A DNA stretch of 64,000 nt from positions 1 through 64,000 of the forward strand of contig JAKIZM010000003.1 of NCBI GenBank assembly GCA_022708025.1. Reading direction: 5' to 3'. The notes under the pieces are model-generated. The model was not told the origin of the DNA. It saw nothing but the letters and a program-made list of their open reading frames with translations, and ran no database searches. Position numbers and translations under genes: made by a program. Positions within the stretch are counted from its first letter, which is position 1, and the number at the start of each line of letters is the position of its first letter. This stretch comes from Bacteroidota bacterium. GTDB taxonomy: Bacteria > Bacteroidota > Ignavibacteria > Ignavibacteriales > Ignavibacteriaceae. Shown piece after piece: positions 4,799 through 15,558 of the stretch.

Positions 4799-7591
4799 AT
4801 GAAAAAAAACTTACTTTCTTACTTCCTTAAATTTCTAATAGTTTTATTAATATCATCTGTGCAAAGTTTTGCAGGTGTAACCGGAAAGATTGCCGGTAAA
4901 GTTACTGATGCACAAACAGGTGAGGAATTGATTGGAATAAATGTACTTGTTGAAGGAACCACAATGGGCGCTGCAACAGGTATTGATGGTACGTATATTA
5001 TTAACAATATCGAACCGGGTACCTATACACTGATTTTTTCAGGTGTCGGTTATCAAAAGCAAATTGTTAAGGATGTAAAAGTATCATCAGATTTTACAAC
5101 TCGGATTGATATCCAGCTTTCCAATGAGGCTATAAGCCTGGAAACTATTATTGTTGAAGCTCAAAGCCCGATGATCAGAAAGGATTTAACTTCTTCAAAA
5201 ACTGTTGTTGATGAAGGAATGATACAATCACTGCCTGTTGAAAGCCTTGATCAGGTTTTAACTCTGCAAGCCGGAATTACAAAAGGTGCCGGCGGTGAGA
5301 TTCACATCCGCGGTGGAAGATCATCAGAGATTTCATATAATGTTAATGGTGTTTCAACTGTTAATCCGTTTGATTTCAGCAGAACCGTAACAATCTCAAC
5401 TAATGCTGTGCAGGAATTATCAGTTGTCAGCGGTACCTTTAATGCTGAATATGGAAATGCTCTTAGTGGAATTGTAAATACTGTTACTAAAGAAGGCGGA
5501 GCAAACTATAAAGGAACTTTTTCTTTTTATACCGGTGATTATGCAAGCGCTCATAGCAGTACTTTTCTTAATATTAATAAATTTAATCCTTTCAGCAATC
5601 ACGTGGTTGAAGGTACCATAGGCGGACCAGTGCCTGTTTTCAATAATGCAATTACATTTTTCTTTTCCGGCAGATATGATAAAAGCAAAGGATATTTATA
5701 CGGTAAAAGATTACATACAATAAGCGATTCAATCTGGATTAATCCAAACAATGTTCAGGAAATAAAAGTTGCAGCTACCGGTGATAATTCAGTTGTTCCT
5801 ATGAACCCCTCAGAGGATTTTTCCGGGACAGCTAAAATAACCATAAAACCTTTTTCTGCCTTTAAGATTAATTATGATGCTGTTTATTCTAGCTCAAACT
5901 ATAAAACCTATAATCATAATCTTAAATACAATCCTGATGCTAATTATCAGAGATTTGAATGGAGTTTATTAAATTCATTAGAAATCAGACATGCAATCAG
6001 CAGCAGTACCTTTTATTCATTACAAGGTGCATATAATGTTTATGATTACAAGCGCTATCTTTTCCCATTGTTAGATGCTTCAGGAAATGAAGTAAGCTTT
6101 TATCCTGGAATGGAATTAGGATATTATTTAGGAAATGATGGTGTACATTACAAAGAACCAGATTCTGGAAGAGTTTGGGTACAAAAATTATACGCTGATC
6201 CAAGATATCAGCCGACTTTTAAACTTAACAGAACATCTCCTTATACTTTTTATGCCGGCGGTACTTTTAATGATCAGTACTACCAGAGATCTCATTCAAG
6301 TGAGATTAAGTTTGATTTAACTAGTCAGGTAAACAATCAACACGAAATAAAATTTGGTGCACGGTTTAAAAACGATTTAATGGACTTTGAGGATTTTACA
6401 ATTCAAAGAGATACATCTCAATATTTAGTTCCAACTATTTTAGGAAAAGAAAGCCCTGTTCATGATTTATATTCTAAAGAGCCGCGACAGTTTTCTGCAT
6501 ATATTCAGGATAAGATGGAATTCACCAGTATGATTATAAATGCCGGTATTCGTTATGATCTTTTTAATTCGAGATCTAAGTATGCACCTGATATTTATGC
6601 TCCGACAAAGAATCTTCAAGATGCTGAAATAAAAAATTCTTTTAGTCCAAGATTAGGAATCTCATTTCCAATTACTGATCAGGGAATAATTCATTTTTCT
6701 TATGGACATTTTTATCAGCTTCCACCTTATAGTTATTTATATACAAATCCAAATTTTGAAGATAATGTTGCAAATCCAACGTTTGGAAATGCTAACTTAA
6801 ATCCGGAAAAAACTGTAACTTATGAAATCGGATTGCAGCAGCAATTAACAGAAGCAGTTGCTTTTAATGTAACAGGATTTTATAAGGATGTGCGTGATTT
6901 ACTTGCTTTGCAAAAAATAAGAACAAGTGTAAGTGATTTTTACTTTAAGTATGTAAATAAAGATTACGGAAATATAAAAGGTATTACTTTTTCACTGACA
7001 AAAAGAAGACTGCCAACCGAATTGTTTTCATTATCGATAGACTATACATTTCAGGTGGCTGAAGGTAATGAAACAGGTGCCGATGCTTTCTTTCTGGATT
7101 TAGCTTCAGGAAGACAAAGTGAAAAAATTCCTGTGCCGTTAAATTGGGATCAGGCTCATACGTTGAATGGTGTTGTATCATTTGGCAACGATAAAGATTG
7201 GTTCGTTACCTTTGTTGGCAATATAAGTACCGGGCTGCCATATACACCGTATCTTTATGATAAACAAATTTATCTGCGGGCAAATAGTGAAAGAAAACCT
7301 CTTCAGACGAATGTTGATTTGTTAATTGAAAAATCATTTAATCTTACTGATTTAGTTATAACGGCTTTTCTGAAAATTTATAATCTGTTTGATACGAAAA
7401 ATGAACGATTTGTTTATGAAGATACAGGAAGAGCAACTTATACTTTAGAACTTAATCAAGGTGGTCCGCAAGCAGCAAATCAATTGTCTGAAAAAAATCC
7501 GCTTATATCATCGGCTACTGAGTATTTTAACCAACCACAATTTTATTCAGCTCCGCGTGAATTTAGGCTCGGAATGATGCTGGAATTTTAA
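4799..7591 (+). CDS. TonB-dependent outer-membrane receptor, SusC/CarboxypepD-regulatory type
   Basis: Outer-membrane active transporter or export partner of 930 residues. Order: signal peptide (about 1-25, SSVQSFAG), a carboxypeptidase-D regulatory-like beta-sandwich (about 29-115, GKIAGKVTDAQTGEELIG), a TonB-box-like segment near ETIIVEAQ, a plug (about 130-235, with HIRGGRSSEISYNVNG and NAEYGNALSGIVNTVTKEGG), then a 22-strand-type barrel ending in the aromatic RLGMMLEF. No SusD partner is next to it; instead a large secreted protein begins 16 bases downstream, followed by a PorV-family gene, so the three probably share a transcript. The substrate is unknown. Family confidence is high; the transport role is inferred. 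Confidence 0.9.
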   Translation: MKKNLLSYFLKFLIVLLISSVQSFAGVTGKIAGKVTDAQTGEELIGINVLVEGTTMGAATGIDGTYIINNIEPGTYTLIFSGVGYQKQIVKDVKVSSDFTTRIDIQLSNEAISLETIIVEAQSPMIRKDLTSSKTVVDEGMIQSLPVESLDQVLTLQAGITKGAGGEIHIRGGRSSEISYNVNGVSTVNPFDFSRTVTISTNAVQELSVVSGTFNAEYGNALSGIVNTVTKEGGANYKGTFSFYTGDYASAHSSTFLNINKFNPFSNHVVEGTIGGPVPVFNNAITFFFSGRYDKSKGYLYGKRLHTISDSIWINPNNVQEIKVAATGDNSVVPMNPSEDFSGTAKITIKPFSAFKINYDAVYSSSNYKTYNHNLKYNPDANYQRFEWSLLNSLEIRHAISSSTFYSLQGAYNVYDYKRYLFPLLDASGNEVSFYPGMELGYYLGNDGVHYKEPDSGRVWVQKLYADPRYQPTFKLNRTSPYTFYAGGTFNDQYYQRSHSSEIKFDLTSQVNNQHEIKFGARFKNDLMDFEDFTIQRDTSQYLVPTILGKESPVHDLYSKEPRQFSAYIQDKMEFTSMIINAGIRYDLFNSRSKYAPDIYAPTKNLQDAEIKNSFSPRLGISFPITDQGIIHFSYGHFYQLPPYSYLYTNPNFEDNVANPTFGNANLNPEKTVTYEIGLQQQLTEAVAFNVTGFYKDVRDLLALQKIRTSVSDFYFKYVNKDYGNIKGITFSLTKRRLPTELFSLSIDYTFQVAEGNETGADAFFLDLASGRQSEKIPVPLNWDQAHTLNGVVSFGNDKDWFVTFVGNISTGLPYTPYLYDKQIYLRANSERKPLQTNVDLLIEKSFNLTDLVITAFLKIYNLFDTKNERFVYEDTGRATYTLELNQGGPQAANQLSEKNPLISSATEYFNQPQFYSAPREFRLGMMLEF

Positions 7592-7607
7592 TTTAATGGA
7601 GATTAAA

Positions 7608-10600
7608 ATGTTGAAAAATAAAAGTTATTATAAAATAATTAAGTCCTTTTTTCTGTTTTTTCTGTTCAGTACTTTAATCTTTGCACAAAAAACACCTGAA
7701 CAAAGACAAGCAGAGCATCAGGCTGTTAAAGATTATCTGAATACATTAATGGAGAAATATCCGAGAAGCCGGAATAATGAATCAACAGTATCCAAGGATG
7801 CTAATAACAGAAGACTAGGAAAAATTACCGGTGAAGAAGACAGAAAATATTATATAATGAATGGCAATAATGTTCTCTGCCAGGTTTGGAATTATGGCGG
7901 TATAGGAGCAGGATTGGGTGGTGAAGGTCTAAGAGAAAAACTTGATATGGTTTGGAGAGATGTTCCGTATATATTTCAGTTTTCTCCGTTCGTTGGAGCA
8001 TCAGTTCCATCAGACCAGGATCCGAATGTAAGACTTAAAATAATTTCTGACGGTATGTACGATTATAGTTATGCTGGATTAAGAGATGAAGATCCTGTTA
8101 CAGGATTTAAATGGACTTTTCAACCGTTACCCGGTTATGCTGATCCTGATCAGGAATTTATCGCTTCAAATCCAACTTTTGATTCTGATCACGATGGCAA
8201 ACCTGATAGCTGGCCAAGAGAATGGTATCACGAATCGCTTGGTGAATATGTTTGGCCCGGATATCTAACAGTGGGAGAAAATAACGCAGATCTGGAAGTT
8301 TATTGGGCTATGGATGATAGAGATAACCTGGAGTTTATCAGAGAAAATCTTGAATATACTTATCATCCATTTATTAATGATCCTACACGAGGCGGCTTGG
8401 GAGTTTCAGTTGATGCTCGAGCATTTCAATGGAGTAATTCACTTGCAGCAAATGCTTTGTTTTTTGTATGGACAATTACCAATATAAGTGATAAAGATCT
8501 GGATACTGTATTATTTGGTATTTACGGCGATCCCGATATTGGCGGTCAGGTTGATAATAAAGACGACTGGGGCGCTTTTATAAAACCTTATGGCAGTGAT
8601 GTTCAGAATATACCTGTTTATGCACGAAGTATGGTTTACTTTTTTGATAACCCGGCTACACCAACTGGTTTGAATGGACTTCCGGTTTATTATCTTGGTT
8701 GTAAGTTTTTGGAAAGTCCGGGTAACTCTGATGATGGAATTGATAACGATGGTGATGGGATGATAGATGAAAGACAGGATGATGGGATTGATAACGATGG
8801 CGACTGGAATCCCGAAACAGATGATGTGGGTGTCGATGGAATTCCAAATACAGGAGATGAAGGAGAAGGCGATGGAATTCCAACCGCAGGGCGGAGATTG
8901 CCGGATGGCAGACCTGATCCATTGGCACCAGGTGAACCAAATTTTGAATATACAGACCTTGATGAATCTGATCAGATTGGTTTAACTAGTTTTGCCAGTT
9001 CTACCTGGAATACAGATTTAAAAATGGGCGATGATAATGTAATCTGGAATAGAAATATTCCCGGCAGCTTTAATCAAATAACTAATGATGCTGATATAGT
9101 GTTTACATTTGGTTCAGGTTATATTTCACTTAAAAAAGGCGAGTCAAAAAGAATATCAATGGCATTTCTTTTTGGTGAGGACTTGAATGATCTTTTAACT
9201 ACTGCAGAAACAGTACAAGATATTTATAACAAAAATTATAGATTTTTCCGCCCGCCTTCTTTACCAAAATTAACTGCTGTACCTGATGACAGGAAAGTAA
9301 CTTTGTATTGGGATACTGAATCAGAAAAAAGTATTGATCCAATAACTGGTGAAGACTTCGAAGGCTATGTTATCTACAGAAGTACTCGCCCTGACTTTGG
9401 CGATATTCAAACTATTACTGACGGAAAGGGCTCTAGCTTTTTATATGAGCCATTAAAAGATATTGAAGGTTTTGATGCAAAATGGGATTTAACTAATGAT
9501 TGGAAAGGTTATCATCCTGTGCCATTTCAAGGAAGAGGTGTCCATTATTATCTTGGTGACAATGCAGGCTTAAGGCATTCCTTTGTTGACTCAAATGGTG
9601 TAATTAACGGACAAACTTATTATTATGGTTTAGTTGCTTATGATCATGGTGACTCACTTGGCATTCCTCCAACTGAAACAACTAAAAAGATTTCTGTTGA
9701 TCCAATTACTGGAAAATTAGTTTTTGATTCCAATACTGCATCTGTTATTCCGGGTCCAAGGGCTAGCGGCTATAATGCTCCTTCAAATTCGGGAAACAAT
9801 ATTATTCATAATAATGGCTATTCTAATGGAATAGTTCGCTACAATATTCTGGATGATTTGAAGATAATTACTACTGATTACAAAATAACTTTTAATGATT
9901 CATTATATGTAGATGACTCTACAATTGTTGCAGGGAAAAATTACAATGTTGTAAGTAATGAAATAATTACAGAAAATTTCTTTCTGTATGGAACTAAGAA
10001 TACAAGCCTGAATAATCGGTACATAATCAATGATGATAATCTTGTAGTTAAATCTAAAGATGGGATAGTTTATCAAAAAAACATAGATTATGAAATAAAT
10101 TATAACAGAGGAGTCATTAAAAGAACAGAAACTAGCACGATGCCTGACAATAGTGAGTTTGTTATTACTTATAAATATTACTCAATATTTCAGAGCAGAT
10201 CCTTTAATGATGAAGATGATAATAATGTTTTTAATGGTATAAAACTAAAGCTGAAGGATTTTCCTGCCTTAGCAATTGACGAAGAAAAAACAAAATGGTC
10301 AGAATCATCTATTACTATTCCATATACAATTAATATAGCATCAATCGGAACGAGAAAGAAAAAATATCCCGGAGATTATATACTTACTTTCTCTGATCAA
10401 AATATCTCAACAGCAAGAAAAGTGGTTTCCGGACGAATGATAGATATTCCGGTTAATTATAAAGTTGAGGAAATCTCAACCGGTATATCAAAACCTATAA
10501 TGACGTTGCTGAATGAAAAAGTAAAGAATGATTCAGCTTTTACCCGAGGCGATGAAATTATTTTCTTTGCACCCGGTGCGCAAGGAACTCTTACTGATAC

Positions 10601-11084
10601 TTTAACCTGGGGGGTAACACTGACTAAGGTTACTGCAACTGATTCAGTAAAGCCGGGAGATGGTTATTCGCTTTTAATTTATACTCAGCGTCCTTTTACA
10701 AAAGAGGATATTTTCACTTTTAGCACAGAAGCCGGATTTGTAAGCAATCAAATGGCTTCTTCAAAACTGGATAATATTTATGTTGTTCCGAATCCTTATA
10801 TAGTTACAAATGAAATTGAACCGACTAACAAAATTCCCGGTCAAAACAGAGGAGAGCGGAGAATCTATTTTGAAAATTTACCAATGAAGTGCACTATAAG
10901 GATATTTACTTTAAGCGGTGAATTGGTAACTACTATCGAGCACGAGACCGGAATGGATAATGGCAGAGAATATTGGAATCTGCTAAACAGAGATGGATTC
11001 AGTGTTTCATATGGGCTATATATAGCTCATATAGATGCACCTGAAGTTGGTGAAAAATTGATAAAGTTTGCAATTATAAAGTAA
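7608..11084 (+). CDS. Giant secreted protein with acidic Ca-binding repeats and T9SS-like C-terminus
   Basis: A 1158-residue exported protein of unknown function. The ATG at 7608 is preferred over 7596 because GGAG (7598-7601) sits 6 bases before it and the signal peptide (FFLFSTLIFAQ) then starts normally. Around residues 365-440 lies a run of thrombospondin-type-3-like loops (DGIDNDGDGMIDE, DGIDNDGDWNPETDD, VDGIPNTGDEGEGDG) likely to bind calcium. A fibronectin-III-like part follows (about 555-690, LTAVPDDRKVTLYWD). The C-terminus (VVPNPYIVTN to KFAIIK) resembles the last beta-sandwich of T9SS cargo. Located between a TonB receptor and a PorV-family gene, it is a candidate dedicated client of both. 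Confidence 0.75.
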   Translation: MLKNKSYYKIIKSFFLFFLFSTLIFAQKTPEQRQAEHQAVKDYLNTLMEKYPRSRNNESTVSKDANNRRLGKITGEEDRKYYIMNGNNVLCQVWNYGGIGAGLGGEGLREKLDMVWRDVPYIFQFSPFVGASVPSDQDPNVRLKIISDGMYDYSYAGLRDEDPVTGFKWTFQPLPGYADPDQEFIASNPTFDSDHDGKPDSWPREWYHESLGEYVWPGYLTVGENNADLEVYWAMDDRDNLEFIRENLEYTYHPFINDPTRGGLGVSVDARAFQWSNSLAANALFFVWTITNISDKDLDTVLFGIYGDPDIGGQVDNKDDWGAFIKPYGSDVQNIPVYARSMVYFFDNPATPTGLNGLPVYYLGCKFLESPGNSDDGIDNDGDGMIDERQDDGIDNDGDWNPETDDVGVDGIPNTGDEGEGDGIPTAGRRLPDGRPDPLAPGEPNFEYTDLDESDQIGLTSFASSTWNTDLKMGDDNVIWNRNIPGSFNQITNDADIVFTFGSGYISLKKGESKRISMAFLFGEDLNDLLTTAETVQDIYNKNYRFFRPPSLPKLTAVPDDRKVTLYWDTESEKSIDPITGEDFEGYVIYRSTRPDFGDIQTITDGKGSSFLYEPLKDIEGFDAKWDLTNDWKGYHPVPFQGRGVHYYLGDNAGLRHSFVDSNGVINGQTYYYGLVAYDHGDSLGIPPTETTKKISVDPITGKLVFDSNTASVIPGPRASGYNAPSNSGNNIIHNNGYSNGIVRYNILDDLKIITTDYKITFNDSLYVDDSTIVAGKNYNVVSNEIITENFFLYGTKNTSLNNRYIINDDNLVVKSKDGIVYQKNIDYEINYNRGVIKRTETSTMPDNSEFVITYKYYSIFQSRSFNDEDDNNVFNGIKLKLKDFPALAIDEEKTKWSESSITIPYTINIASIGTRKKKYPGDYILTFSDQNISTARKVVSGRMIDIPVNYKVEEISTGISKPIMTLLNEKVKNDSAFTRGDEIIFFAPGAQGTLTDTLTWGVTLTKVTATDSVKPGDGYSLLIYTQRPFTKEDIFTFSTEAGFVSNQMASSKLDNIYVVPNPYIVTNEIEPTNKIPGQNRGERRIYFENLPMKCTIRIFTLSGELVTTIEHETGMDNGREYWNLLNRDGFSVSYGLYIAHIDAPEVGEKLIKFAIIK

Positions 11085-11105: not shown

Positions 11106-12119
11106 ATGAAAACAACAAAATCTATTATCCTTTTAATCTTGGCAGTTTCTCTGATTTTTACTGTTAATGCTCAGACTCTAAAAACGGGAACTACTGCTGC
11201 ACAAGTTCTTAAAATTAATGTTGGTCCAAGGGCAATTGGAATGGGCGGTGCATTTACTGCTGTTGCTGATGATATCTCATCACTTTACTGGAATCCTGCC
11301 GGATCGGCTAACATAGAATCTAATGAAGCTTTTTTTAATCACACAGCGTTATATCTGGACATTAATCACGATTATGCTGCTATTGCAACCAATTTAACAG
11401 GATTTGGAACAGTCGGAGCATTTGTATCAGTTTTATCTACTGATGATATGCCGGTTCGTACAGTTGAAAAACCCGAAGGAACAGGTGAATTTTTTAATTA
11501 CGGAGCGATTATAGTTGGAGTGAATTATTCACGTTACCTTACAGAAAATTTCTCAATCGGATTTAATGCAAAGTACATTAACGAATCTATATGGCATATG
11601 AGTGCAACCGGCTTTGCAATAGATGTGGGTACATTATATAAAATTCCCGTATTGAATGAACTGCGTATAGCAGCAAGCATCTCAAACTTTGGTACAAAAA
11701 TGCAGATGGAAGGTAGAGATGTAACCCAGAATTTTCCTTCGGGAGCAGGTGGAGGAAATCTTATAAATGCTAATCTTGAGTTAGATAAATTTGATTTACC
11801 TTTAATGTTCAGATTCGGGCTTTCTGCAGATGTTATTAAAGATCAAACATCAAGATTAACTACTTCTTTAGATGCTATCCATCCTAATGATCATACAGAA
11901 TATATAAATTCCGGTTTGGAATACTCCTGGAATGAAACTGTATTTCTGAGGGTTGGGTATAACTCACTTTTTGAAAAAGATTCTGAAAAAGGTTTAACAG
12001 CAGGAATCGGAATAAACTATCGTTTAGTTGATCTGGTTAAGGTTAAGCTTGATTATGCATATCAGGATTTTGGCAGATTAAGTGATGTTCACTACTTCTC
12101 ATTAGGAATTACTTTCTAA
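11106..12119 (+). CDS. PorV/PorQ-family outer-membrane protein
   Basis: A 337-residue protein with a signal peptide (to VNAQ) and the family signature at its mature N-terminus: LKINVGPRAIGMGGAFTAVA followed by DISSLYWNPAGSA. The family forms FadL-like beta-barrels; PorV works with the T9SS sortase attachment complex and PorQ is another T9SS-linked member. The end (FSLGITF) is the typical aromatic barrel terminus. It starts 21 bases after the giant secreted protein with GGAG upstream, and a strong terminator follows, so it closes the operon. Whether it is the general T9SS shuttle PorV or a paralogue specific to this operon cannot be decided from the sequence. Confidence 0.85.
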   Translation: MKTTKSIILLILAVSLIFTVNAQTLKTGTTAAQVLKINVGPRAIGMGGAFTAVADDISSLYWNPAGSANIESNEAFFNHTALYLDINHDYAAIATNLTGFGTVGAFVSVLSTDDMPVRTVEKPEGTGEFFNYGAIIVGVNYSRYLTENFSIGFNAKYINESIWHMSATGFAIDVGTLYKIPVLNELRIAASISNFGTKMQMEGRDVTQNFPSGAGGGNLINANLELDKFDLPLMFRFGLSADVIKDQTSRLTTSLDAIHPNDHTEYINSGLEYSWNETVFLRVGYNSLFEKDSEKGLTAGIGINYRLVDLVKVKLDYAYQDFGRLSDVHYFSLGITF

Positions 12120-12369: not shown

Positions 12370-13998
12370 TCAATTACCGCAGACTTGTTCAAAAACTCTT
12401 TTAAAATTACCGCCTAAAAATTTTGCAACTTCTTGCTCAGTATAACCGTGCTGTAATAATGCTAATGTCAGGTCAGGGAACTTACTAACATCTTCCAAAC
12501 CAAATGGTGTTACTTCAATTCCATCAAAATCAGATCCGATTGAAACATAATCTGTGCCCACTACACTAACTATATGATCAACATGAGCAATTACATCCTC
12601 AATTGAAGCGTTAGCACTGCCGTTAAGAAAATACGGATAGAAAACAACTCCAATAACTCCGCCGGTGTTTGCAATATCCTGAATTTGCCAATCATATAAA
12701 TTTCTGTAATGGTCATAAACACTTCTGGCACCGCTATGGGAAGCAATTATCGGATTATTGGTAACGGTAAGAATATCCTGGATAGTTTTAATTCCCGTGT
12801 GAGAAACATCTATTATAACTCCAAGTGAGTCCAGTTTACGGATAACTTGTTTACCAAAATCGTTTAATCCCTGAGTAAGTGTTCTGTTATCTTTTGCCGA
12901 AATTGCCCAGCTGGTGCTGTTATTCCAGGTAATAGTTAAATATCTCATACCCAGATTATAAAGCTCATAAAGTTTTTCCAAACTATCTTCAATATGATGT
13001 CCGCCCTCCACTCCAATTACTCCGGCAATCTTATTCTGACTGTTAAGTGATAAAGCTTCTTGTAATGTGGTAGCACTGCCTATCGATGAAGTGTTCGCTG
13101 ATAATTCAGAATTGAATATATCATACATATACAAAGCCTGATCAAAATAATTTGTATAAGCAGTTGGACTGACCCAAATAGAAAAGAATTGAATATTAAC
13201 TTCGCCGGTCTGCATTCTTGGTATATCAGTATGATTAAAATTATGCAGGTCCTTCAGATGATAGCTTGTGTCATTAACCATAACTTCAAGTATATCATTG
13301 TGCAGATCAATCAGGGTATATTTTGAGTGAATTGTTTGGAGTTCAGTAACAAAATTTTCTCCACCTAAAACAGAGGTAATAATTGAATCAGCAGCAAAGC
13401 TGAATTTTGTAATTACTATTTCCAGATCTAATGAAGATATATTTTTTACGGAATAATTATTTACAATTCCCGAACGGATTTCTCCTATACCAATTCCATT
13501 ACCGCCATCAAGCTGAACCATTTTTTTAGTTACTGAATTATTTCCAAACGAAATTGTATAAAGATAAACTGCAGCGCTTCCTCTGCTGTACCAATCAACA
13601 GTATAAACACCAGCAGGTAAAAAAGAACTTTTTTTATCGATCAGTTCACCAAGTATATTGTGAACCGTTATTGTAACCTGCCCATCGCTTGGGATAGAAA
13701 AATTAATTTTAGTTGATGGATTAAATGGGTTAGGGAAGTTTTGTTCTACCCGGAAATCATTTGGCAGATATGTAAGCGGCTCAACTGAAACTGCAATAAC
13801 ATCATATTCCCAGTTGCCGGTAAAATCAGTAAAAACAGAATCTACAGTTCCATTTGATAAATCTTTAATCTGAACTTTTGCATTTTCAATCGGTGAACTT
13901 GTCTTTGAATCTTTAACATAACCTGTTATTGTAATTGTCTGTGCAGTTAAAAAGTGATTTAATAAAACAACAGATAATATTAAAAATATTTTTTTCAT
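12370..13998 (-). CDS. Membrane-dipeptidase-like (peptidase M19) protein with internal sorting-like module
   Basis: A 542-residue exported enzyme. Order: signal peptide (1-20, FLTAQ), a carboxypeptidase-regulatory-like domain (about 22-70), a segment 84-164 that matches a type-A T9SS sorting domain (QNFPNPFNPSTKINF to VTKKMVQLD), a linker, then a complete M19 dipeptidase domain (about 225-542). Metal ligands are visible: His233 and Asp235 in IDLHNDIL, the Glu of GVEGGH, His in DVSHTG and His in ASHSGAR. M19 enzymes are zinc dipeptidases acting on L-Xaa-D/L-Xaa peptides. The internal position of the sorting-like module is unusual. The start codon directly follows the stop of the HerA-like gene, implying cotranscription. 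Confidence 0.9.
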   Translation of the reverse strand: MKKIFLILSVVLLNHFLTAQTITITGYVKDSKTSSPIENAKVQIKDLSNGTVDSVFTDFTGNWEYDVIAVSVEPLTYLPNDFRVEQNFPNPFNPSTKINFSIPSDGQVTITVHNILGELIDKKSSFLPAGVYTVDWYSRGSAAVYLYTISFGNNSVTKKMVQLDGGNGIGIGEIRSGIVNNYSVKNISSLDLEIVITKFSFAADSIITSVLGGENFVTELQTIHSKYTLIDLHNDILEVMVNDTSYHLKDLHNFNHTDIPRMQTGEVNIQFFSIWVSPTAYTNYFDQALYMYDIFNSELSANTSSIGSATTLQEALSLNSQNKIAGVIGVEGGHHIEDSLEKLYELYNLGMRYLTITWNNSTSWAISAKDNRTLTQGLNDFGKQVIRKLDSLGVIIDVSHTGIKTIQDILTVTNNPIIASHSGARSVYDHYRNLYDWQIQDIANTGGVIGVVFYPYFLNGSANASIEDVIAHVDHIVSVVGTDYVSIGSDFDGIEVTPFGLEDVSKFPDLTLALLQHGYTEQEVAKFLGGNFKRVFEQVCGN

Positions 13999-15558
13999 TT
14001 ATCTTCTTCTTCCGCCCATACCGAGAACACCAAGTAAACCACGGGTTATTTCTCTTACCAAGGTTCTTCCAACCTGTTTAGACAGCTGACTATTAATTAC
14101 TTTATCCATAGTGCTTTTTTCAGTGCGGCGGGTTGTGGTTCTTTGAGTTGGTTGTGGAAACTGATACCTGGTTTCTTCAGGCACTTTCAATTCAAAATCT
14201 TTAGCAACGTCTAATTTTTTTGTCAATATCTCATAAGCACTTTCTCTGTCAATAACATCTTTATACTTATTAAAAAGCGTAGATGTCCTTACATTATTGT
14301 CAATCTCTTCAGGAGTTAAAATATCCATTCTTGATCTTGGTGCACAAAGTAATGTTGCAGCAAGTGGTGTTGGGACACCTTTTTCGTTTAATGTACTTAT
14401 TGCCGCTTCACCAATACCAAGTGAAGTAAGTAATTCATCAGTTTTATAAAATTCAGAAATCGGATAATTCTCAGATGTTAACTTTATCATTTTTCTGTCT
14501 TGTGCTGTAAATGCTCTGAGTGCATGTTGTACTTTCAATCCCAATTGGCTTAATACAGCCTTAGGTATATCGGTTGGGTTTTGCGTGCAAAAATAAATGC
14601 CCACACCTTTTGATCTTATCAGTTTAATTATTGTTTCAATCTGATCAAGTAATGCTTTACTAGCTTCTTTAAAAATTAAATGAGCTTCATCGATTACAAT
14701 AACTAATTTTGGTTCGGCTTTATCACCAAGTTCAGGGAAAGTTGAATATATTTCCGCTAGAAGTGAAAGCATAAAAGTGGAAAATAATTTTGGTCTGTCC
14801 TGTAAATCTATCAAACGCAAAACAGATATTATTCCGTTACCGTTTTCATCAATTCGTAACAAATCTTCAACTTCGAATGATCTTTCACCGAAAAACTTTT
14901 CTGCTCCTTGTTGTTCAAGTTCAACAACCTTTCGTAAAATAGTTCCGATTGAAGCAGGTGAAATTGCACCATAATCTTTAGAAATATCCTGTTTACCTTC
15001 TGCTGCAGCATATTGTAGTATTTTCTTTAAATCTTTAAGATCAAGCAGCGGATAATTTTTATCATCGCAATATTTAAATAGTACAGCTATCAGTCCGGCT
15101 TGTGTATCATTTAATTCTAGAATTTTTGAAATAAGGATTGGACCAAATTCGGAAACTGTTGCTCTTAAACGTGTGCCTTTTTCATCTGATAAAGTCAAAA
15201 ACTCAACAGGAAATTTTTTAGGCACAAATGATATTCCGATTTTAGAATGTCTTTCTTCTATTTTTGGATTGGTTGTACCTTCTGCAGCAATTCCGCTCAG
15301 ATCACCTTTGATATCCATCAGAAGTACAGGAATACTTTTTTCTGAGAGAGTTTCTGCAAAAACCTGAACAGTTTTTGTTTTACCTGTACCGGTTGCTCCG
15401 GCTATCAATCCATGTCTGTTAATTGTACTAAGCGGAATTTTTACGAGAAGATTTGGCTGTGCTTCTTTTTCATAAATTGCTGTGCCAAGTACAAGTGAAT
15501 CACCTTTAAAAGAATATCCATCTTGAATTGAGGTGATAAATTTTTCTACAAAGCTCAT
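13999..15558 (-). CDS. HerA/YjgR-like DUF853 ATPase
   Basis: A 519-residue cytoplasmic P-loop ATPase of the HerA/FtsK superfamily, DUF853 branch (E. coli YjgR is about 500). Walker A is GATGTGKT (54-61), Walker B lies in LVIVIDEAHLIF, and the arginine- and sensor-containing stretch FCTQNPTDIPKAVLSQLG is typical. The C-terminus is glycine- and arginine-rich (LLGVLGMGGRRR). Members are predicted DNA translocases or helicases, but I know of no settled physiological role for YjgR. No NurA nuclease is adjacent, which argues against a canonical HerA-NurA resection pair. Confidence 0.9.
   Translation of the reverse strand: MSFVEKFITSIQDGYSFKGDSLVLGTAIYEKEAQPNLLVKIPLSTINRHGLIAGATGTGKTKTVQVFAETLSEKSIPVLLMDIKGDLSGIAAEGTTNPKIEERHSKIGISFVPKKFPVEFLTLSDEKGTRLRATVSEFGPILISKILELNDTQAGLIAVLFKYCDDKNYPLLDLKDLKKILQYAAAEGKQDISKDYGAISPASIGTILRKVVELEQQGAEKFFGERSFEVEDLLRIDENGNGIISVLRLIDLQDRPKLFSTFMLSLLAEIYSTFPELGDKAEPKLVIVIDEAHLIFKEASKALLDQIETIIKLIRSKGVGIYFCTQNPTDIPKAVLSQLGLKVQHALRAFTAQDRKMIKLTSENYPISEFYKTDELLTSLGIGEAAISTLNEKGVPTPLAATLLCAPRSRMDILTPEEIDNNVRTSTLFNKYKDVIDRESAYEILTKKLDVAKDFELKVPEETRYQFPQPTQRTTTRRTEKSTMDKVINSQLSKQVGRTLVREITRGLLGVLGMGGRRR

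Follow-up and report, generated by a model that had tools for sequence, protein, structure and literature searches.

A type A sorting domain nested in the N-terminal arm of a predicted exported M19 dipeptidase

T9SS sorting domains are normally defined and annotated as removable signals at the C-terminus of proteins. The dipeptidase gene described here, located in a window of 64,000 nucleotides (the whole stretch of DNA analysed), departs from this arrangement: its sorting domain (CTD) lies near the N-terminus and is followed by 380 further residues, and it is neither C-terminal nor ended by Lys or Arg. This raises the question of what a sorting domain does in the middle of an enzyme's chain. 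The nested CTD provides a natural test that separates the parts of the signal needing a free C-terminus from those serving the fold or PorV binding, and it offers a caution that the automatic label 'T9SS type A sorting domain-containing' is no proof of secretion. In the open-licence literature searched, no T9SS sorting domain was found to be described as internal or nested. The gene and its parts are as follows.

12370–13998, minus strand: whole gene, encoding a predicted exported M19 dipeptidase of 542 aa with a nested sorting domain (open reading frame; PF01244, 340 bits; 16 close relatives)
13942–13998, minus strand: putative signal peptide, residues 1–19, with Q as residue 20 (by eye from the sequence)
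13795–13941, minus strand: transthyretin-like (CarboxypepD_reg) domain, part 1, residues 20–68, four strands (PF13620 match, model strands, fold alignment)
13747–13794, minus strand: entry linker, residues 69–84, of low confidence and poorly conserved (model, orthologue alignment)
13510–13746, minus strand: nested T9SS type A sorting domain (CTD), residues 85–163, seven strands (Pfam, NCBIfam, model, orthologues)
13432–13509, minus strand: exit linker, residues 164–189, opening with the conserved D164-G165 at the position where terminal CTDs close with Lys/Arg (comparison with orthologues and terminal CTDs)
13333–13431, minus strand: transthyretin-like domain, part 2, residues 190–222, three strands (model, fold alignment; excision test mixed)
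12385–13332, minus strand: peptidase M19 (membrane dipeptidase) barrel, residues 223–538 (PF01244, PDB match, residues invariant in 35 rows)

The dipeptidase and its split N-terminal domain

The gene product is an exported M19 dipeptidase, with its activity predicted from the sequence. The Peptidase_M19 match extends across residues 223–538 with 340.2 bits (Pfam), and comparison of this part with dipeptidases in the PDB gives a best E of 6.9e-59, to 9h0b. Seven barrel residues (H233, D235, E331, H400, H421, R432 and D490) are invariant in 35 orthologue rows, and we take these to be metal or substrate residues; the first five are presumed to be ligands, as in the human enzyme. A HerA/VirB4-like ATPase gene lies directly upstream on the same strand (window positions 13999–15558) and is also found near the dipeptidase in several members of the genus. 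The same genome encodes an M19 paralogue of 413 aa (G000:C9:5593-6660, L267) that has neither a transthyretin-like nor a sorting domain.

The presence of a type A sorting domain within an M19 dipeptidase was proposed in the first-pass annotation, and the open reading frame, the domain and its place are all confirmed. Residues 88–161 match TIGR04183 with 34.6 bits (cut-off 23; NCBIfam) and Por_Secre_tail (PF18962) with 27.2 bits (cut-off 27; Pfam), and a TIGR04183 match at E≤0.001 is present in 16 of the 17 dipeptidase orthologues scanned. The finding exceeds what chance would give, as the same segment recurs in 35 of 35 orthologues. FlgD_ig (PF13860) matches the nested domain weakly, at 14.6 bits, which is below its cut-off (Pfam). 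In a profile search of the PDB the sole T9SS chain is 8glj_D (E 0.029), ranked below a proteasome chain (0.028).

The CTD had been placed between a regulatory-like domain and the enzyme; this is corrected here, as it is nested inside the regulatory-like domain, which resumes after it. Several observations bear on the nesting. First, the CarboxypepD_reg (PF13620) match to residues 23–65, at 31.4 bits and just under the cut-off of 32.3, covers positions 1–42 of the 82-position profile and ends immediately ahead of the insert. Second, a model of the whole protein built from 17 orthologues (mean pLDDT 84.4, pTM 0.71) has four strands at residues 21–68, seven at 83–162 and three at 190–220, followed by the barrel, with G117 predicted to fall between strands 3 and 4 of the seven CTD strands. 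Third, the N-terminal arm was modelled separately (pLDDT 79.0, pTM 0.45, so that the positions of its two domains relative to each other are unreliable) and aligns by VIA-align with 5aq0_B, the transthyretin-like domain of human carboxypeptidase D (Z 12.4, rmsd 1.4 Å over 79 of 82 residues), and with 1qmu_A (Z 12.2). The 5aq0_B alignment extends from model residue 3 to residue 205 (first to last aligned); VIA-align reports these end residues only, and we infer from the 82 residues of the target and from the strand list that the stretch skipped is the sorting domain. CTD structures are absent from the 50 VIA-align rows, which is uninformative because the CTD was modelled only within the arm, and Foldseek with the N-terminal model gave chiefly multi-domain matches with poor TM-scores. 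Fourth, excision of the CTD gives a mixed outcome: the PF13620 match reaches the profile's second half in three of five joined sequences, while the window's own sequence and that of L014 still stop at profile position 43, and the second host-domain half of the window protein has no match on its own. From sequence and model, the CTD can be placed firmly in the loop between predicted strands 4 and 5 of the transthyretin-like sandwich. An end-to-end fusion of a small secreted protein with an enzyme was also considered as the origin, and is rejected because the host fold is split around the CTD.

Distribution and conservation of internal sorting domains

The frequency of internal domains was addressed using a profile made from the window genome's own sorting domains and run over 728,989 bases, comprising the window together with genome stretches and loci; the stretches surround 150 TIGR04183 hits (209 candidates initially, 150 scored), and coverage of the genome is incomplete. 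There are 167 distinct sorting domains, of which 159 are C-terminal (151 finishing exactly at the stop codon), seven are truncated where a locus or contig stops, and one is internal. That of the dipeptidase is thus the sole internal domain found in the searched stretches, and the exceptional position ascribed to it at the outset is confirmed for the window genome as one among 160 domains with a readable end.

Orthologues were defined as M19 matches with at least 50% identity, and are present in 17 genomes (including the window's own) of the 59 relatives searched and in 26 of 245 genomes drawn from the class; at E≤1e-55 the class draw yields 40 of 245, the other 14 having 38–45% identity. Eight genomes are shared between the draws, giving 35 in all; one of these (G112) is cut at the N-terminus by a contig end, is unreadable there and was left out, such that the 35 rows analysed are the remaining 34 genomes and a named contig, L071. 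The internal sorting domain is present in all 35 orthologues with a readable N-terminus, spread across eight family-level groups (f1, f2, f3, f5, f11, f13, f14 and f19) and L071, with nearly constant segment lengths; L289 has an extra stretch inserted in the first motif. The four M19s read among the 14 of lower identity (L293–L296, 38–41% identity) have neither a transthyretin-like nor a sorting domain, and a draw of 395 genomes from the phylum contributed one additional M19, with 39% identity and no sorting domain. No M19 whose transthyretin-like domain is unsplit, which would represent the pre-insertion state, was found among the M19s with about 40% identity that were read; these (L293–L296 and L372, apart from ten others of that kind) lack both domains. 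In a tree of 163 domains the 35 internal CTDs lie on one side of a branch with support 100/95, in an alignment of only 81 columns with an unsettled bootstrap. Within this sample, the relationships among the sequences trace the arrangement to one insertion in an ancestor that has been retained since.

The CTD is also more conserved than the domain that hosts it, as judged by the mean entropy of alignment columns across the 35 rows (host half 1, 2.14; CTD, 1.54; exit linker, 2.58; host half 2, 2.25; M19, 1.21), and its dN/dS is 0.07–0.31 in six pairs.

Comparison of the 35 internal domains with 156 terminal domains of the window genome reveals both shared and altered positions. Common to both are PNPFNP, G117 (100 vs 99%), G130 (100 vs 99%) and K159 (100 vs 97%), with G117 and K159 present in 35 of 35 internal domains. 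Three replacements are seen. First, the terminal Lys or Arg (75+23%, i.e. 98% of the 156) is Asp in 91% of internal domains (32 of 35). Second, the Leu two places before the end (82% of terminal domains) is Gln (91% of internal ones). Third, the Ser of SG[VI]Y (96%) is Ala (94%). The internal domains also differ in the residues following G117 and have two one-residue deletions. In the L071–L150 loci, 111 of 113 terminal domains end in Lys or Arg. The exit pattern KM..LDG has matches in 31 of 59 genomes; outside the M19 family, among the loci read, these mostly do not mark the end of a sorting domain.

The first-pass annotation had raised the prospect of internal copies in other proteins. No further copy was found in the searched stretches of the window genome, and six internal sorting-like domains, apparently of separate origin, are present near protein N-termini in a Gemmatimonadota MAG (L079, G272). 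Five of these sit within a regulatory domain split in the same manner, the sixth immediately follows a signal peptide, and all six exit by MVL[VL]DG; in the L079 domain, FlgD_ig (31.3 bits) scores above Por_Secre_tail (17.4, below its cut-off). The L079 gene is at 6001–8229 of JAPPEG010000121.1, and its copy is followed by a dockerin and LDL-receptor-B repeats; the others are L367–L371. When 24 other genomes were searched with the Gemmatimonadota module, it was mainly the sorting domain that was covered among the matches listed. A common origin for the M19 and Gemmatimonadota copies was considered and is unsupported, the two lying apart in the tree (81 columns, unsettled bootstrap). There is also a 360-aa frame (L061, G058:C44) in which 11 aa precede a CTD with the ending KKMVLLDG and about 270 aa follow it, possibly another internal copy or a broken gene.

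T9SS machinery, PorV-family neighbours and possible roles

The window genome encodes SprA (1028.7 bits) and PorU (951.6 bits); the contig that carries the window has, outside the window, a second, partial PorU-sortase-like match within a frame of 1793 aa (G000:C55:86614-91257). Two genes downstream of the dipeptidase and convergent with it are also relevant.

11106–12119, plus strand: PorV/PorQ-family outer-membrane protein, convergent neighbour and possible partner (NF033709 match)
7596–11084, plus strand: 1162-aa predicted exported protein adjoining the PorV-family gene (tail sorting-domain-like by eye)

The product of the first matches NF033709 with 220.4 bits (cut-off 90) and is under the cut-offs for PorV and PorQ proper; the tail of the second has no Pfam family at E≤0.01. 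Among 35 loci with M19 in place (the window, L330–L362 and L071), 14 have a strong PorV-family gene (E≤3e-92) no more than 3.5 kb from M19. This gene is convergent at 0.16–1.85 kb in the window, L330–L334, L336 and L339, at 2.7 kb in L337 and 3.5 kb in L342, 9–60 bp upstream on the same strand in L355, L356 and L359, and upstream on the same strand in L357, where it overlaps an over-extended ORF start. These 14 neighbours form four paralogue groups in a tree (eight of the window type, four of an f5/f11 type that is upstream on the same strand, and two singletons), and because of this the association seems, from the sequences, to have recurred rather than to have been inherited once. Three f13 loci (L347, L351 and L354) have a FadL-like barrel after M19 on the same strand with a weak match to the PorV-family profile (E about 1e-13), and this is all that those three contain; no PorV-family gene is near M19 in 18 of the 35 loci, some stretches ending early. 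The window genome has 13 PorV-family genes over the cut-off, so a single adjacency can arise by chance, with a roughly estimated probability of about 2.6% for a given gene within 3.5 kb (13 × 7 kb / 3454 kb). The linkage was noticed post hoc and is suggestive only.

What might the nested domain do? It is no ordinary cleavable terminal tag, as follows from its nested architecture, and because the chain continues for 380 residues it is no tag cut off with the enzyme left on the anchored side. As the arrangement is real, old and conserved, the sorting domain has probably become a permanent part of the protein with a job of its own. Two leading readings of that job remain. In one, the domain would have been kept for recognition and would continue to contact the secretion machinery or a PorV-like barrel; in the other, as had been suggested initially, the beta-sandwich would be used for something other than sorting.

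We lean tentatively, at a little under an even chance, toward the first of these in a specific form, in which the CTD would be a permanent, uncleaved recognition domain, acquired by a single retained insertion, that docks the dipeptidase on a PorV/PorQ-family outer-membrane barrel and would keep it at the outer membrane. There is precedent in a review (PMC10202324) where the PorU CTD is described as remaining bound to PorV and the PorZ CTD as binding PorQ; the same text describes Lys residues of motif E as required. PMC10994853 reports that a near-C-terminal, almost invariant CTD Lys touches PorV in all of its structures, and K159, being 97–100% conserved and placed there by the weak 8glj alignment, would be this Lys. 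PMC12618676 describes type A domains as using PorV and type B domains as using cognate barrels often encoded next door, and PorV is described as acting as a shuttle in PMC5562754. The nested fold, its conservation in 35 of 35 orthologues, its single origin, the kept K159, the presence of SprA and PorU, the PorV-family linkage and the PorU/PorZ precedent are all consistent with docking. Against it stand Asp in place of the terminal Lys or Arg (32 of 35) and the mostly Ala replacement of the SG[VI]Y Ser, both at positions in secretion-tied motifs, and the 18 of 35 loci without a PorV-family neighbour. The kept G117, G130 and PNPF prove no recognition, because the conserved motifs other than the Lys specify the fold only, according to PMC10994853. 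In short, the retained Lys and the nearby PorV-family genes point towards recognition, while the lost terminal Lys/Arg and the neighbourless half of the loci point away from it.

The second reading, a pure structural exaptation in which the CTD fold would be a building block of a periplasmic dipeptidase (a spacer, or an arm for stability or substrate access) with T9SS contact lost, is quite possible. It accounts for the loss of the terminal Lys/Arg, the changes common to the clade in motif D and near motif B, the conservation of mostly fold-specifying motifs (PMC10994853) and the 18 loci lacking a PorV-family neighbour. It sits less easily with K159, kept in 35 of 35 though the Lys is reported as a PorV contact and as important in transport, with a CTD conserved above its host domain and beyond a spacer's need, and with the recurrent PorV-family linkage. 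We consider it rather unlikely that the CTD is instead a working internal secretion signal, read mid-chain by SprA and PorV so that the folded enzyme would reach the surface with no special docking partner. The genome encodes SprA and PorU, neither G117 nor K159 varies, and C-terminal His tags are reported as tolerated on PorU, PorZ and PPAD in PMC11285876, which also describes the CTD's C-terminus and its b3-b4 loop as important for secretion; nonetheless, all but one of the 160 CTDs with a readable end are terminal, a 380-residue extension far exceeds the reported tags, and the terminal Lys/Arg is lost. An ordinary sorting signal cleaved by PorU ahead of the CTD, as in normal cargo, is very improbable: PorU is encoded and the linker at residues 69–84 is poorly conserved, but the cut would anchor only half a transthyretin-like domain and free the enzyme with the tag. 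An artefact or relic (misassembly, read-through or a decaying gene fusion), for which the odd layout alone speaks and which the first-pass annotation had entertained as a misassembled junction or a fusion relic, is scarcely credible given the same junctions and near-constant segment lengths in all 35 orthologues, whose assemblies are separate, the low dN/dS of the CTD (0.07–0.31, six pairs), and a nested position that excludes end-to-end fusion.

A broader proposal may be entertained, which we regard as doubtful: that sorting domains need not be terminal, and that a never-cleaved, nested one may be recognised mid-chain and tether an exported enzyme to a PorV-family barrel dedicated to it. Such domains would have arisen at least two times, in the M19 clade and in the Gemmatimonadota multi-gene family, both with an [LV]DG exit replacing the terminal Lys/Arg.

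Comparison with known systems

The nested domain shares with type A domains (TIGR04183 / PF18962) the same profile match, the seven predicted strands, PNPFNPST, the Gly of the b3-b4 loop and the near-invariant Lys, and differs from them in being internal and nested, with an Asp exit in place of the terminal Lys/Arg and 380 residues beyond. The FlgD Ig-like domain (PF13860) is weakly similar, and TIGR04183 is the better fit to the dipeptidase domain. Like the carboxypeptidase D transthyretin-like domain (PF13620; 5aq0), the host has a seven-stranded fold, but a complete CTD interrupts it after strand 4, and it sits ahead of an enzyme. The full barrel is common to the dipeptidase and to peptidase M19 of the renal/membrane dipeptidase kind (9h0b, 1itq), whereas the dipeptidase has a split N-terminal arm with a CTD, which the M19s read at 38–41% identity (L293–L296) lack. 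The uncleaved CTDs that PorU and PorZ carry in the T9SS attachment complex offer a parallel, in that the dipeptidase CTD would also be retained and a PorV/PorQ-family barrel is a possible partner; theirs are C-terminal, whereas that of the dipeptidase is nested, close to the N-terminal end of a metabolic enzyme.
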